Shown piece after piece: positions 47,397-50,237 of a DNA stretch of 64,000 nucleotides. A program made the translations under genes and the position numbers. The notes beneath the pieces are model-generated. The model was not told the DNA's origin. It ran no database searches and saw only the letters and a list, made by a program, of their open reading frames with translations. Numbering within the stretch: position 1 is the stretch's first letter; the number at the start of each line of letters is the position of its first letter. This DNA comes from Candidatus Bathyarchaeota archaeon (GTDB taxonomy: Archaea; Thermoproteota; Bathyarchaeia; Bathyarchaeales; Bathycorpusculaceae): positions 186,001-250,000 of the forward strand of contig JAOZHT010000002.1 of assembly GCA_026014735.1 (NCBI GenBank), written 5' to 3'.

Positions 47397-48509
47397 GTGG
47401 AAGCGGTGGCAGAAAAAGACCTCGGATACCGACGAGTCCAATGCACAGGCAGAGGCTCCTTCATCATATCCCTCCCCAAAGAATGGGTCGAAGACCTAGG
47501 CCTAAAACGCGGCAGCGAAATCGCCTTCAATATCCAACCCGACAGCACCCTCACACTGGTGCCTCGGAAAATCATGGAGAAAGAAGGCAAAAACGACGCC
47601 GCCAAACCCAAAGAATATTTCATCAACGTTGACTCCAAAGAGCCCACCGAATCCGCCCTACGAATGGTAAGAGCGCTCTACGCCATCGGCGCCGACATCA
47701 TCCGCATCCACTTCAAAAACCTCAAAGACGCCCCAAAATATAAAATCGAAACAAAAAACTTCGTCCGAGACACCTTTCTGGGGGCGGAAATCATCGATGA
47801 AACACCCGACGAAATCACCCTGCAGATCTTAATCAAACACAGCGAGTTCGGCATCGAAAAAGCTGTCCGCCGCATGGCAATCGTGGCGCTTGCAGCCAAC
47901 CGCGACGCCATAGCCTACCTTGATGACCACAGCAGCGCACTCTACGATAGCGTTATGCATGCACGCAACGATGTGAATCGTTTGGGGCTCTATATTGTGC
48001 GGCAACTCAAGTATGGCATCGAACGTAACCTTTACCGGGAACTGGGTTTCCGCACGCCTAAGGAGTTTCTGCTCTACCGCATAGCCGTCAACGACATCGA
48101 AAACATCGGAGAAAACGCCCTAAACATAGTTAACAATATTGGAGCCTTCCAGAAGCTCATACAGGACGAAACCCTCTTCATCAAAGACCCCCTCGACGAG
48201 GAAGTCTACATGCAACTCACCGACTTCTACAGTCAGGCTCAGCAGCTCTACGAAGACGCCATCAAAGCAGTCTTTAAACGGGACTACAAAGACGCGGAGA
48301 AGCTGATTTCGAAGCGGGACGCCATGGTGCCGCTGGAAAGCTCGATAATCATGTTGATTTCCAGCAAGAAAATGGATCCTAATGTAACCGCGATTTTGCG
48401 GTTGATCTTTGACAGTGCACGGCGAATTCTCGATTATGGCCGCAACATGGCGGAACTTACGTTGAACCGCACCGTGGAGGAACTCTGCTCAACACTAACC
48501 TACAAATAA
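47397..48509 (+). CDS. AbrB-PhoU domain regulator
   Basis: 370 residues. The N-terminal SpoVT/AbrB-like swapped-hairpin domain (VQCTGRGSFIISLPKEWVEDLG, residues 14-35, then KRGSEIAFN) is followed by PhoU-like three-helix bundles (about 150-360). Such archaeal proteins are annotated as phosphate uptake regulators and are thought to respond to phosphate, possibly at the membrane. GTG start is preceded by AAAGGTGG. TATA-like elements lie at about 47321-47331 and 47345-47352. No Pst transporter genes are nearby. Confidence 0.88.
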   Translation: MEAVAEKDLGYRRVQCTGRGSFIISLPKEWVEDLGLKRGSEIAFNIQPDSTLTLVPRKIMEKEGKNDAAKPKEYFINVDSKEPTESALRMVRALYAIGADIIRIHFKNLKDAPKYKIETKNFVRDTFLGAEIIDETPDEITLQILIKHSEFGIEKAVRRMAIVALAANRDAIAYLDDHSSALYDSVMHARNDVNRLGLYIVRQLKYGIERNLYRELGFRTPKEFLLYRIAVNDIENIGENALNIVNNIGAFQKLIQDETLFIKDPLDEEVYMQLTDFYSQAQQLYEDAIKAVFKRDYKDAEKLISKRDAMVPLESSIIMLISSKKMDPNVTAILRLIFDSARRILDYGRNMAELTLNRTVEELCSTLTYK

Positions 48510-48522
48510 GCGTGGAAAATGT

Positions 48523-48576
48523 TGGTTGTCCGGCCGGGATTCGGACCTGGGTCCGCGACTCGAGAAACCGCTATAC
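48523..48576 (-). repeat. 3' part of tRNA-Glu (54-bp direct repeat, left copy)
   Basis: Bases 48523-48576 match 49130-49183 at 49 of 54 positions and in the same direction. They comprise the encoded CCA, the acceptor 3' strand, T arm, variable region and anticodon arm of tRNA-Glu(CTC), stopping in the D arm. The T stem has a mismatch and the acceptor differs at two bases; the sequence beyond 48576 gives no proper D arm or 5' acceptor. This is a tRNA remnant or att-like site. Confidence 0.8.
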
Positions 48577-48681
48577 ATAGCCAGCCTATCGGGTTCAACG
48601 ATAGTATCTAAAAAGTGTTTGGTGACTCAGTATGCAAGAAATATTAGGCACTAAAATGAGATATCTTATGAGGCTTATATA

Positions 48682-48927
48682 ATGACTGAAACCTGTACGT
48701 TTTCAGCGATACTGTGGAAAGAGGGAAAAGTCCAAATCGCATGGTCTCCGGAATTTGACATCGCAAGCCAAGGGAAAAATGTGGAAGAAGCTTTAGCGAA
48801 TCTGCGGGAAGCCGTCGAGCTTTATTTAGAAGATGAAGATGCCAAGATTCCAAATAAAAAATCGCCTATCCTGACAACCCTGAGTGTTGAGGCACATGCC
48901 AAAGCTGAAACCTGTATCAGGTCTTAA
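48682..48927 (+). CDS. hicB: HicB-like antitoxin
   Basis: 81 residues with the HicB partial RNase H fold: FSAILWKEGKVQIAWSPEF and ASQGKNVEEALANLREAVELYLEDE. HicB neutralises the HicA toxin by binding it. The usual C-terminal DNA-binding domain is absent or reduced, so it may not repress alone. The gene overlaps hicA by 32 bases. It is within the segment bounded by the tRNA-Glu repeats. Confidence 0.88.
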   Translation: MTETCTFSAILWKEGKVQIAWSPEFDIASQGKNVEEALANLREAVELYLEDEDAKIPNKKSPILTTLSVEAHAKAETCIRS

Positions 48928-49129
48928 GCTAATCAAAGCATTGGGTAAAGCTGGTTTTCAAGTTGTTGGAAAGAAAGGCAGCCATGTTCGGCTCAAAAGA
49001 AAAACAGCTACAAGCTTTAACATAGTAATCGTTCCAATGCACCCTGAAATAAAGAAAGGAACCCTCAAATCTATTCTCCGACAAGCAGACCTAACAGAAA
49101 AGGACCTCATAGTTCTATTAGAGGATTAG
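48896..49129 (+). CDS. hicA: HicA-like toxin (mRNA interferase)
   Basis: 77 residues of the double-stranded RNA-binding-like fold. KPVSGLKLIKALGKAGF, then VGKKGSHVRLKRKT contains the catalytic His-equivalent, and IVPMHPEIKKGTLKSILRQADLT closes it. HicA cleaves mRNA. Start ATG 48896 is preferred over 48884 since the family begins near MPKLKPVSG. Its stop codon (49127-49129) touches the encoded CCA (49130-49132) of the tRNA-Glu gene on the other strand, an exact junction. Confidence 0.9.
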   Translation: MPKLKPVSGLKLIKALGKAGFQVVGKKGSHVRLKRKTATSFNIVIVPMHPEIKKGTLKSILRQADLTEKDLIVLLED

Positions 49130-49132
49130 TGG

Positions 49133-49207
49133 TGCTCCGGCCGGGATTCGGACCCGGGTCCGCGACTCGAGAGGCCGCTATACTTGACCGGACTATACTA
49201 CCGGAGC
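49133..49207 (-). tRNA. tRNA-Glu (CTC), CCA encoded at 49130-49132
   Basis: 75 bases with acceptor GCTCCGG/CCGGAGC, D arm, anticodon stem GCGGC/GTCGC with loop CTCTCGA (anticodon CTC at 34-36), variable region GGAC and T stem CCGGG/CCCGG with loop TCCGAAT. The discriminator A is followed by genomic CCA, which many archaeal tRNA genes lack. It lies directly next to hicA, with a 3' partial copy 600 bases beyond. Confidence 0.93.
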
Positions 49208-49307: not shown

Positions 49308-50237
49308 TTAGCTTTGGGGAGCTGTTTTGTTTAATGCTCGGCGTGAAAGGTAGAAGGCAACGCCGACTAATGCGAAGGTAACGATTATCGGCACCACCGA
49401 GGGTAATTCTATGTTGAAGGCTTCCACTACCATAAAGAAGCCTAGGAACCCGATGGAGGTTAAGGCGCCGTTTTTAAGGTACTTGTATTTGGCTATGGAG
49501 TCGATGCCCTTGATGGTTAGTTCCCGCACAACTATGGCACCGATGCCTATGCCGATGAGGATCAAAATCAAGTTTATGGTGAAGGCAAAGGCGCCGATGA
49601 CACCGTCGAAGCTAAAGGTCATGTCGAGTACTTCAAGGTAAACGAATTTTGAGAAGTCACTCATGCCCCTTGTGCCCTCGACGAGGTTGCGTTCGCTTTC
49701 CTCAGCGGTCTGCTTTAAACCGTAGAGGATAAAGAAGGTGGCGCTGCCGATGGCGGCGGCAAGCATCACCATCGAATCTGCCCTCGCTAGATACATCACT
49801 ACAACTAGGATTATGGCGGCGAATGCGAAGAACCATACCCCTTGTTTCTGTTTGAGGTAGCGTTCGATGAATAGGGGTTCTTTGGGTTCAAGAAACAGCC
49901 AGTGGAAGTAGAGGTAGAGGAGGAATACTCCGCCGAACATGAGGATGAGGGGTTTTTGCATTTCTATGGCGTTTGCTGCAACTTCGCTTTGCCCGATGAA
50001 TGCTAGGAACAGGTCGGAGCCGCTTATCGTGGGAACGGATATCCACACGATAATTAGAGGCAGGATGAACCGGACCAGAAACACCGATGTCAGGATGCCG
50101 ATGAAGAGGAAGCGTTTGCGCCACAGCACACTCATGGTTTTTAGTACGCTAGCGTTTACGATGGCGTTATCTACGCTGTTGACAACTTCGAAGACAATTA
50201 GCCCAAGCACGATGGCTACTGACTCGACTAGCGACAC
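49308..50237 (-). CDS. TerC-like integral membrane protein (DUF475)
   Basis: 309 residues with about eight to nine transmembrane helices. VFEVVNSVDNAIVNASV near the N-terminus and EVLDMTFSFDGVIGAFA at the mid-region hold the acidic residues conserved in TerC/DUF475, tied to metal (manganese) homeostasis or tellurite resistance in bacteria. GTG start. Function in archaea is not established. Confidence 0.85.
   Translation of the reverse strand: MSLVESVAIVLGLIVFEVVNSVDNAIVNASVLKTMSVLWRKRFLFIGILTSVFLVRFILPLIIVWISVPTISGSDLFLAFIGQSEVAANAIEMQKPLILMFGGVFLLYLYFHWLFLEPKEPLFIERYLKQKQGVWFFAFAAIILVVVMYLARADSMVMLAAAIGSATFFILYGLKQTAEESERNLVEGTRGMSDFSKFVYLEVLDMTFSFDGVIGAFAFTINLILILIGIGIGAIVVRELTIKGIDSIAKYKYLKNGALTSIGFLGFFMVVEAFNIELPSVVPIIVTFALVGVAFYLSRRALNKTAPQS

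Follow-up and report, generated by a model that had tools for sequence, protein, structure and literature searches.

Two earlier accounts (PMC8371274, PMC6563490) describe archaeal integrases that use the 3' ends of transfer RNA (tRNA) genes. For the SSV-type and pNOB8-type elements of Archaea, both tandem integration and loss of the integrase have been documented (PMC8371274). In Bacteria, additive flexible genomic islands are built from cassettes added at tRNA genes with tRNA direct repeats (PMC7771536 for Ca. Actinomarinales; PMC10872708 for Methylophilaceae). The latter source also treats the tycheposons, elements of 4-200 kb with a recombinase. Archaeal insertions bounded by tRNA fragments appear as well in the work on Thaumarchaeal elements (PMC6563490) and on a 1.8 kb element at tRNA-Thr(GGU) of Caldiarchaeum (PMC3293823). 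Here we describe a toxin-antitoxin (TA) pair, hicBA, that lies between an intact tRNA-Glu(CTC) gene and a fragment of the same tRNA in a Candidatus Bathyarchaeota archaeon. The genome under study (G000, 2.9 Mb) was analysed around one stretch of 64,000 bases, G000:C2:186001-250000, which we call the window. We argue that the pair was inserted at the tRNA, and the wider analysis suggests that the tRNA genes of this genus serve as docking sites for mobile gene cassettes of very small size.

The hicBA cassette at tRNA-Glu(CTC)

A preliminary description, made from the sequence alone, held that hicA and hicB are bracketed by tRNA-Glu and a copy of its 3' part, the arrangement left by integration at a tRNA 3' end. 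The anatomy bears this out (Table 1). Rfam (RF00005, 54.7 bits) gives the tRNA the span first reported, 49133-49207 on the minus strand, and ARAGORN adds the encoded CCA. The hicA stop codon, TAG at 49127-49129, is indeed flush against the complement of that CCA (49130-49132). The fragment at the far edge has the same orientation as the tRNA. It had been described as 54 bases with 49 identical; that count is right for the last 54 bases, but the true fragment is longer, with 57 of 67 bases identical (85%, E 6.9e-16 in 13 kb). No integrase lies between tRNA-Glu and the fragment, as was also noted at the outset, and hicB and hicA are the sole genes there.

The relatives show what the site looked like before. 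The conserved order is thermosome, (TerC,) tRNA-Glu(CTC), a variable interval and a phoU-like gene. Two genus-mates have empty sites, in which the tRNA and the stop of the phoU-like gene are separated by 23 bases (G018) and 37 bases (G014). In G000 the 23-base spacing to this stop belongs to the fragment instead, at the place taken by the tRNA in G018, so the fragment marks the original tRNA end. On this anatomy it is close to certain that the cassette is a site-specific insertion at tRNA-Glu that displaced the original tRNA end. The fragment was also considered as a functional tRNA half; this is ruled out by the missing 5' half and the lack of any tRNA call.

The preliminary description proposed looking in related genomes for empty sites, other cargo and integrase genes at this locus, and all three are found. 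In G011 the site holds esterase and acyltransferase genes adjoining the tRNA. In G007 there are three genes in 3.9 kb, then a tRNA-Glu fragment as boundary, then esterase and acyltransferase genes of the G011 type; this fragment has an end point similar to that in G000 and bounds different cargo. G012 has a 5.5 kb insertion in which a tyrosine recombinase begins 80 bases away from the tRNA, and a search for its distal repeat found none. By inspection, the short insertions in G013 and G022 contain VapBC-like debris, and nothing was recognised inside a short insertion in G009. As a separate observation, tRNA-Glu(CTC) of G016, G017 and G005 (L071, L072, L073, L074) is interrupted after about nt 24 by a stretch of some 30 bases that looks like an intron in an unusual position.

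The identity of the pair is best supported on the toxin side. HicA is a secure PF07927 member, a search with the hicA family profile matched solved HicA chains, and the GSH motif, with the conserved histidine of the HicA fold, is invariant across the HicA alignment. HicB is weaker in Pfam (DUF7387, 3.8e-4; HicB_lk_antitox, 0.0095) and is backed by profile matches to solved HicB-like PDB chains (2yzt, 8.5e-5; 9svk_B, 0.01). In every case the hicB homologues have a hicA partner. Fold, GSH motif and overlapping HicB-like partner point to a HicBA type II TA system with a predicted toxin activity. PADLOC and NCBIfam gave no match to either protein. A predicted HicB structure was of low confidence (predicted local distance difference test score, pLDDT, 48) and hence was not used. 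The two genes together span 48682-49129 on the plus strand, with an alternative, longer hicA start possible at a GTG at 48884. Both are under purifying selection, with nonsynonymous divergence (dN) about one tenth of synonymous divergence (dS) where dS is measurable, so both have been functional over evolutionary time. The nearest named relatives in a HicA search are Candidatus Bathyarchaeota metagenome-assembled genomes.

Table 1. Features of the focal locus (window positions), and other cassettes, integrase genes and putative elements of G000 (contig positions where C1 or C2 is given)
Feature	Location	Strand	Remarks
tRNA-Glu(CTC) with encoded CCA	49130..49207	-	intact; proximal edge of cassette; ARAGORN
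hicA, toxin gene	48896..49129	+	77 residues from ATG; PF07927, E 1.7e-19
hicB, antitoxin gene	48682..48927	+	81 residues; 32-base overlap with hicA
tRNA-Glu 3' fragment (tRNA nt 12-78)	48523..48589	-	distal edge of cassette; displaced original tRNA end
Whole inserted cassette, present-day form	48523..49129		607 bases; edges are tRNA end and fragment end; empty sites in relatives
PhoU/AbrB-domain gene (phoU-like)	47397..48509	+	PF01895 and PF04014; flank on fragment side, synteny in relatives; outside cassette
TerC-family gene	49308..50237	-	PF03741; flank on tRNA side in several species (synteny); outside cassette
Second hicBA cassette	at tRNA-Arg(CCT)		548 bases
VapBC-like pair cassette	at tRNA-Pro		820 bases
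SSV-type integrase gene	C1:891152-		Val(GAC) fragment; ~27 kb from tRNA-Val(GAC)
SSV-type integrase gene	C2:145243-		Pro(TGG) fragment; ~16 kb from tRNA-Pro(TGG)
Putative integrated element	C1:891089-918198		~27 kb at tRNA-Val(GAC); SSV-type integrase
Putative integrated element	C2:144432-160979		~16 kb at tRNA-Pro(TGG); SSV-type integrase; then a 0.8 kb fragment-bounded interval

Cassettes at other tRNA genes

HicA relatives were collected and then checked for neighbouring tRNAs and tRNA fragments. G022 and G048, the latter a member of another genus, have the same convergent unit of tRNA, hicA, hicB and fragment at tRNA-Thr(GGT); G005 has it at tRNA-Thr(CGT) and G003 at tRNA-Thr(TGT). Recurrence of the repeat had been named early on as a point to check, and the architecture does recur at other tRNAs and in another genus. 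In these four Thr units the distance from tRNA end to fragment end is 583-662 bases. G013 has a 1.8 kb version, and G018 has hicBA at tRNA-Thr(GGT) with no recognisable fragment. The recurring units fall into two diverged hicBA lineages. In more remote archaea, tRNA-Leu(GAG) and a 95% fragment on a Staphylothermus contig enclose 1.4 kb with hicA, a HicB-like frame and one more gene, and on a Thermoprotei contig hicBA is flanked by tRNA-Ala and a weak 19-base repeat. Of 45 distinct hicA loci, six have their end no more than 20 bases from the 3' end of a tRNA, against about 0.02 expected by our own arithmetic from ~46 tRNAs in roughly 2.4 Mb. The loci are related to one another, but they involve four different tRNA genes. 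Two features of the genes may be recorded here. The hicA genes of the tRNA-Thr cassettes (L086, L088, L091, L108) have no ATG, GTG or TTG near the start, and a conserved CTG behind a Shine-Dalgarno-like GGTGGAG may serve as start codon. In the closest hicBA homologues away from tRNAs (L082, L084, L085; G015, G042, G006), hicA is broken and hicB largely intact.

The fragments at tRNA-Thr(CGT) of G005 and tRNA-Thr(TGT) of G003 have the anticodon arm of the GGT isoacceptor, so the hicBA unit changed its target. A cassette whose site derives from GGT would leave such fragments on integrating into a sister gene. In G003 the fragment combines GGT and TGT sequences as a mosaic, and its last bases match the TGT host gene. 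There is no hicA at the tRNA-Thr(GGT) locus of G005, and in G000 no fragment lies within 11 kb of the tRNA-Thr CGT and TGT genes.

The arrangement is not confined to hicBA. We surveyed the tRNA genes of G000 with 3' flanks of ~11 kb; the elements at Val-GAC and Pro-TGG extend beyond these flanks and were detected via their integrases. Copies of the adjacent tRNA's own 3' part (E<=0.001) number 13 on the same strand and none on the opposite strand, which excludes chance. Three of the 13 come from a doubtful prediction, a 274-base intron-bearing tRNA-Ser, whose repeats we ignored. Most matches of non-adjacent tRNAs reflect cross-hits between similar tRNAs and these cassette fragments. Besides tRNA-Glu(CTC), ten same-strand 3' fragments at six tRNAs bound integrase-free cassettes: three in tandem at Arg(CCT), two each at Gly(TCC) and Pro(CGG), and one each at Ala(CGC), Ala(TGC) and Cys. 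Arg-CCT, Gly-TCC and Pro-CGG have tandem arrays, so that the pattern of additive islands, several cassettes per tRNA with each ending in a tRNA repeat, is found genome-wide; tRNA-Glu itself has a single cassette in G000 and other cargo in relatives. No recombinase was recognised inside the surveyed cassettes.

One of the ten belongs to a second hicBA cassette, at tRNA-Arg(CCT). It shares a perfect repeat of ~40 bases with its tRNA, and its hicA stop adjoins the fragment; on both counts it looks young. The cargo elsewhere includes a VapBC-like pair, a 478-residue protein with no Pfam match, a histidine kinase, a membrane protein, a metallo-beta-lactamase fold protein, an AAA ATPase related to AriA/AbiLi and a pyrroloquinoline quinone (PQQ)-propeller protein, and by inspection an ATP-binding cassette (ABC) transporter operon and amylase-type genes. 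Decay increases from the first to the second fragment in the Pro and Gly arrays. Of the three Arg fragments it is the third that has decayed most, although the short second match does not fall below the first. Many of the fragments begin at nt 26-37 of the tRNA. On the other side of tRNA-Arg, 5' fragments lie upstream of the gene in the same orientation at G000:C5:37033-37074 and at L382 (G009:C74) 1254-1285 and 1876-1910, so 5'-side insertions may also occur at this tRNA.

A tally by size, which started from tRNAs, not hicA, and covers a small sample of few tRNAs, found a TA component in 8 of 9 tRNA-bounded intervals below 1 kb. These are hicBA (Glu and Arg of G000, Thr of G022), VapBC or VapBC-like pairs (Pro of G000, Thr of G024, an array in G003), MNT-HEPN in that VapBC array, and a PIN protein in the Arg array of G003. 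The remaining interval holds one metallo-beta-lactamase protein. The G003 array (L385, G003:C65, 1552-3172) has VapBC and MNT-HEPN in tandem, each bounded by tRNA-Thr(GGT) 3' fragments, beside an SSV-type integrase gene.

How the smallest units may move

Two families of tyrosine recombinases in the genus appear, from the position of their genes, to target tRNA 3' ends. In relatives, PF00589 genes lie on the tRNA strand, 47-170 bases past the tRNA 3' end. They are found at Glu(CTC) in four species, at Thr(GGT), at Thr(CGT) twice, and at Thr(TGT), Asn, Asp, Gly, Ser and Leu, so all four tRNA types that host focal-type hicBA units also have a PF00589 integrase in relatives. This family has no good match in G000. 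The SSV-type family (PF16795) has a tRNA fragment at or in the 5' end of its gene, often translated as the N-terminus. These fragments usually run from about nt 30 to the 3' end and derive from Gly, Thr, Arg, Val, Ala and Pro tRNAs. Two genes of this kind are present in G000 (Table 1). The fragment starts of the cassettes share this region with the SSV-type sites, which is consistent with the same site geometry. One family of tRNA-adjacent integrases reaches up to 13 copies or pieces per genome in G023, G012, G001, G020 and others. Many of the pieces are N-terminal only, and some lie beside tRNAs, which has the look of an integration graveyard.

We believe it probable, on balance, that the focal islet is a minimal non-autonomous TA cassette moved in trans by a tRNA-targeting tyrosine recombinase. 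Such a cassette would consist of one attachment site, the 3' part of tRNA-Glu, and the hicBA pair. It would have entered at the 3' end of tRNA-Glu(CTC), presumably by way of a circular intermediate, through site-specific recombination of the tRNA gene with the matching sequence on the incoming DNA. With integration the tRNA gene would again be intact, and its displaced end would persist as a decaying fragment. The catalyst was most likely supplied by another integrated element with an SSV-type PF16795 or a tRNA-adjacent PF00589 recombinase. HicA and HicB probably make loss of the cassette costly, to judge from TA pairs elsewhere, and this would explain the frequency of TA pairs among the smallest cassettes.

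The preliminary description left the choice between a minimal TA islet and the remnant of a larger element open. The main rival is that each hicBA islet is the leftover of an integrase-bearing provirus or plasmid after internal deletion, with the TA genes surviving since their loss is toxic. Several observations speak for it. Integrase-bearing insertions occupy the same tRNA-Glu site in G012, G020, G023 and G002, degraded integrase fragments lie beside several tRNAs in relatives, the Thr unit of G013 is 1.8 kb long, and loss of the integrase after integration is a documented event in Archaea (PMC8371274). What it explains poorly is the uniformity of the units. A unit of 583-662 bases, which abuts the tRNA at one end and has the fragment a short way from hicB at the other, occurs at four tRNA genes and in two diverged hicBA lineages, and independent deletions would need near-identical stop points every time. 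The GGT-type fragment in the CGT and TGT units argues further that the unit moved with its own site. Constant size at different tRNAs together with the change of target make movement of the 600-base unit itself the best reading; the islet is thus favoured, and we consider the remnant unlikely.

Homologous recombination between similar tRNA 3' halves, or gene conversion of the flanks, could in principle have spread the unit without a site-specific recombinase. The Thr isoacceptor genes do have long similar stretches in common, and the mosaic fragment of G003 could arise in this way. However, the insertions are always at the 3' end and in one orientation, the fragments start mostly near the anticodon loop like the attachment sites translated in SSV-type integrases, many unrelated cargos follow the same insertion rule, and the shared repeats are merely ~26-67 bases. 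We regard this explanation as quite improbable. A further reading, in which a second tRNA-Glu gene degenerated long ago into the fragment and hicBA merely lies between the copies, would account for weak similarity reaching into the D arm of the fragment, but it is hardly credible given the single tRNA and the empty-site spacing in relatives, the similar end point of the G007 fragment with other cargo, and the recurrence of the architecture elsewhere.

Several observations weigh against a minimal cassette moved in trans. With 15% divergence in its fragment, the focal insertion is not a recent one. G000 yielded no recombinase specific for tRNA-Glu, and neither an excised circle nor a second strain of the same species, occupied or empty, was seen. 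Some hicBA copies of the genus are located away from tRNAs; a search of the flanks of the closest of these (G015, G042, G006, G024) for tRNA fragments gave chance level, except for a short tRNA-Cys-like match near an integrase of G015. Cassettes above 1 kb hold many cargo types, and TA content is therefore not general.

A broader proposal can be put forward tentatively, and it may well prove too ambitious. The tRNA 3' ends of the genus would form a genome-wide, integron-like cassette system. Its sub-kilobase TA-only units (hicBA, vapBC, MNT-HEPN) would be truly mobile, moved between isoacceptor tRNA genes by the tyrosine recombinases of other elements, stacked in tandem with the newest beside the tRNA, and kept since the TA pair punishes excision.

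Comparison with known systems

If the small units truly move, few known integrative elements are smaller, for each unit would consist of one attachment site and one TA pair. Archaea would then have a cassette economy resembling integrons with tRNA genes as the sites, and the units would offer a clear-cut setting for the question of whether TA pairs last by protecting the DNA around them. From the layered arrays one can read the relative order in which genes were gained by uncultured archaea, since the fragments tend to be less similar the farther they lie from the tRNA.

Integron cassettes contain one or a few genes, are moved by a recombinase encoded elsewhere and form tandem arrays, and the TA cassettes of superintegrons are thought to stabilise these arrays. 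The likeness lies in small, promoter-proximal style cassettes, a recombinase that here would act in trans, tandem arrays and TA cassettes; the difference is that the boundary repeats seen here are tRNA 3' parts, not attC, although no search aimed at attC was made, and that no integron integrase turned up at the locus, again with no search aimed at one. The SSV-type and pNOB8-type elements likewise target the 3' part of a tRNA, rebuild an intact tRNA and leave a 3' fragment at the far end, but they usually have many kilobases and their own integrase, whereas the focal unit has ~600 bases and no integrase. Tycheposons are also cargo elements at tRNA genes involving tyrosine recombinases; the focal unit is far smaller and has no recombinase. 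The Caldiarchaeum element (PMC3293823) differs in having a recombinase gene of its own, in the 5' fragment that it leaves and in the involvement of introns. TA-only units are not described in the parts consulted of that work and of the Thaumarchaeal work (PMC6563490), and the open-access literature searched gave no description of TA-only tRNA cassettes in archaea.

Additive islands come closest. They accumulate at one site, and their reported sizes go down to 330 bases. Theirs are bacterial, with cargo that is mostly metabolic, surface-related or unknown, whereas here the host is archaeal, the smallest units are TA pairs, and a single family of units occupies several isoacceptor genes, an anticodon arm having been carried over. 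Cassettes associated with tRNA genes are known as such; what is apparently new is that archaea have TA-only cassettes of less than one kilobase and that these have spread over isoacceptor tRNA genes.
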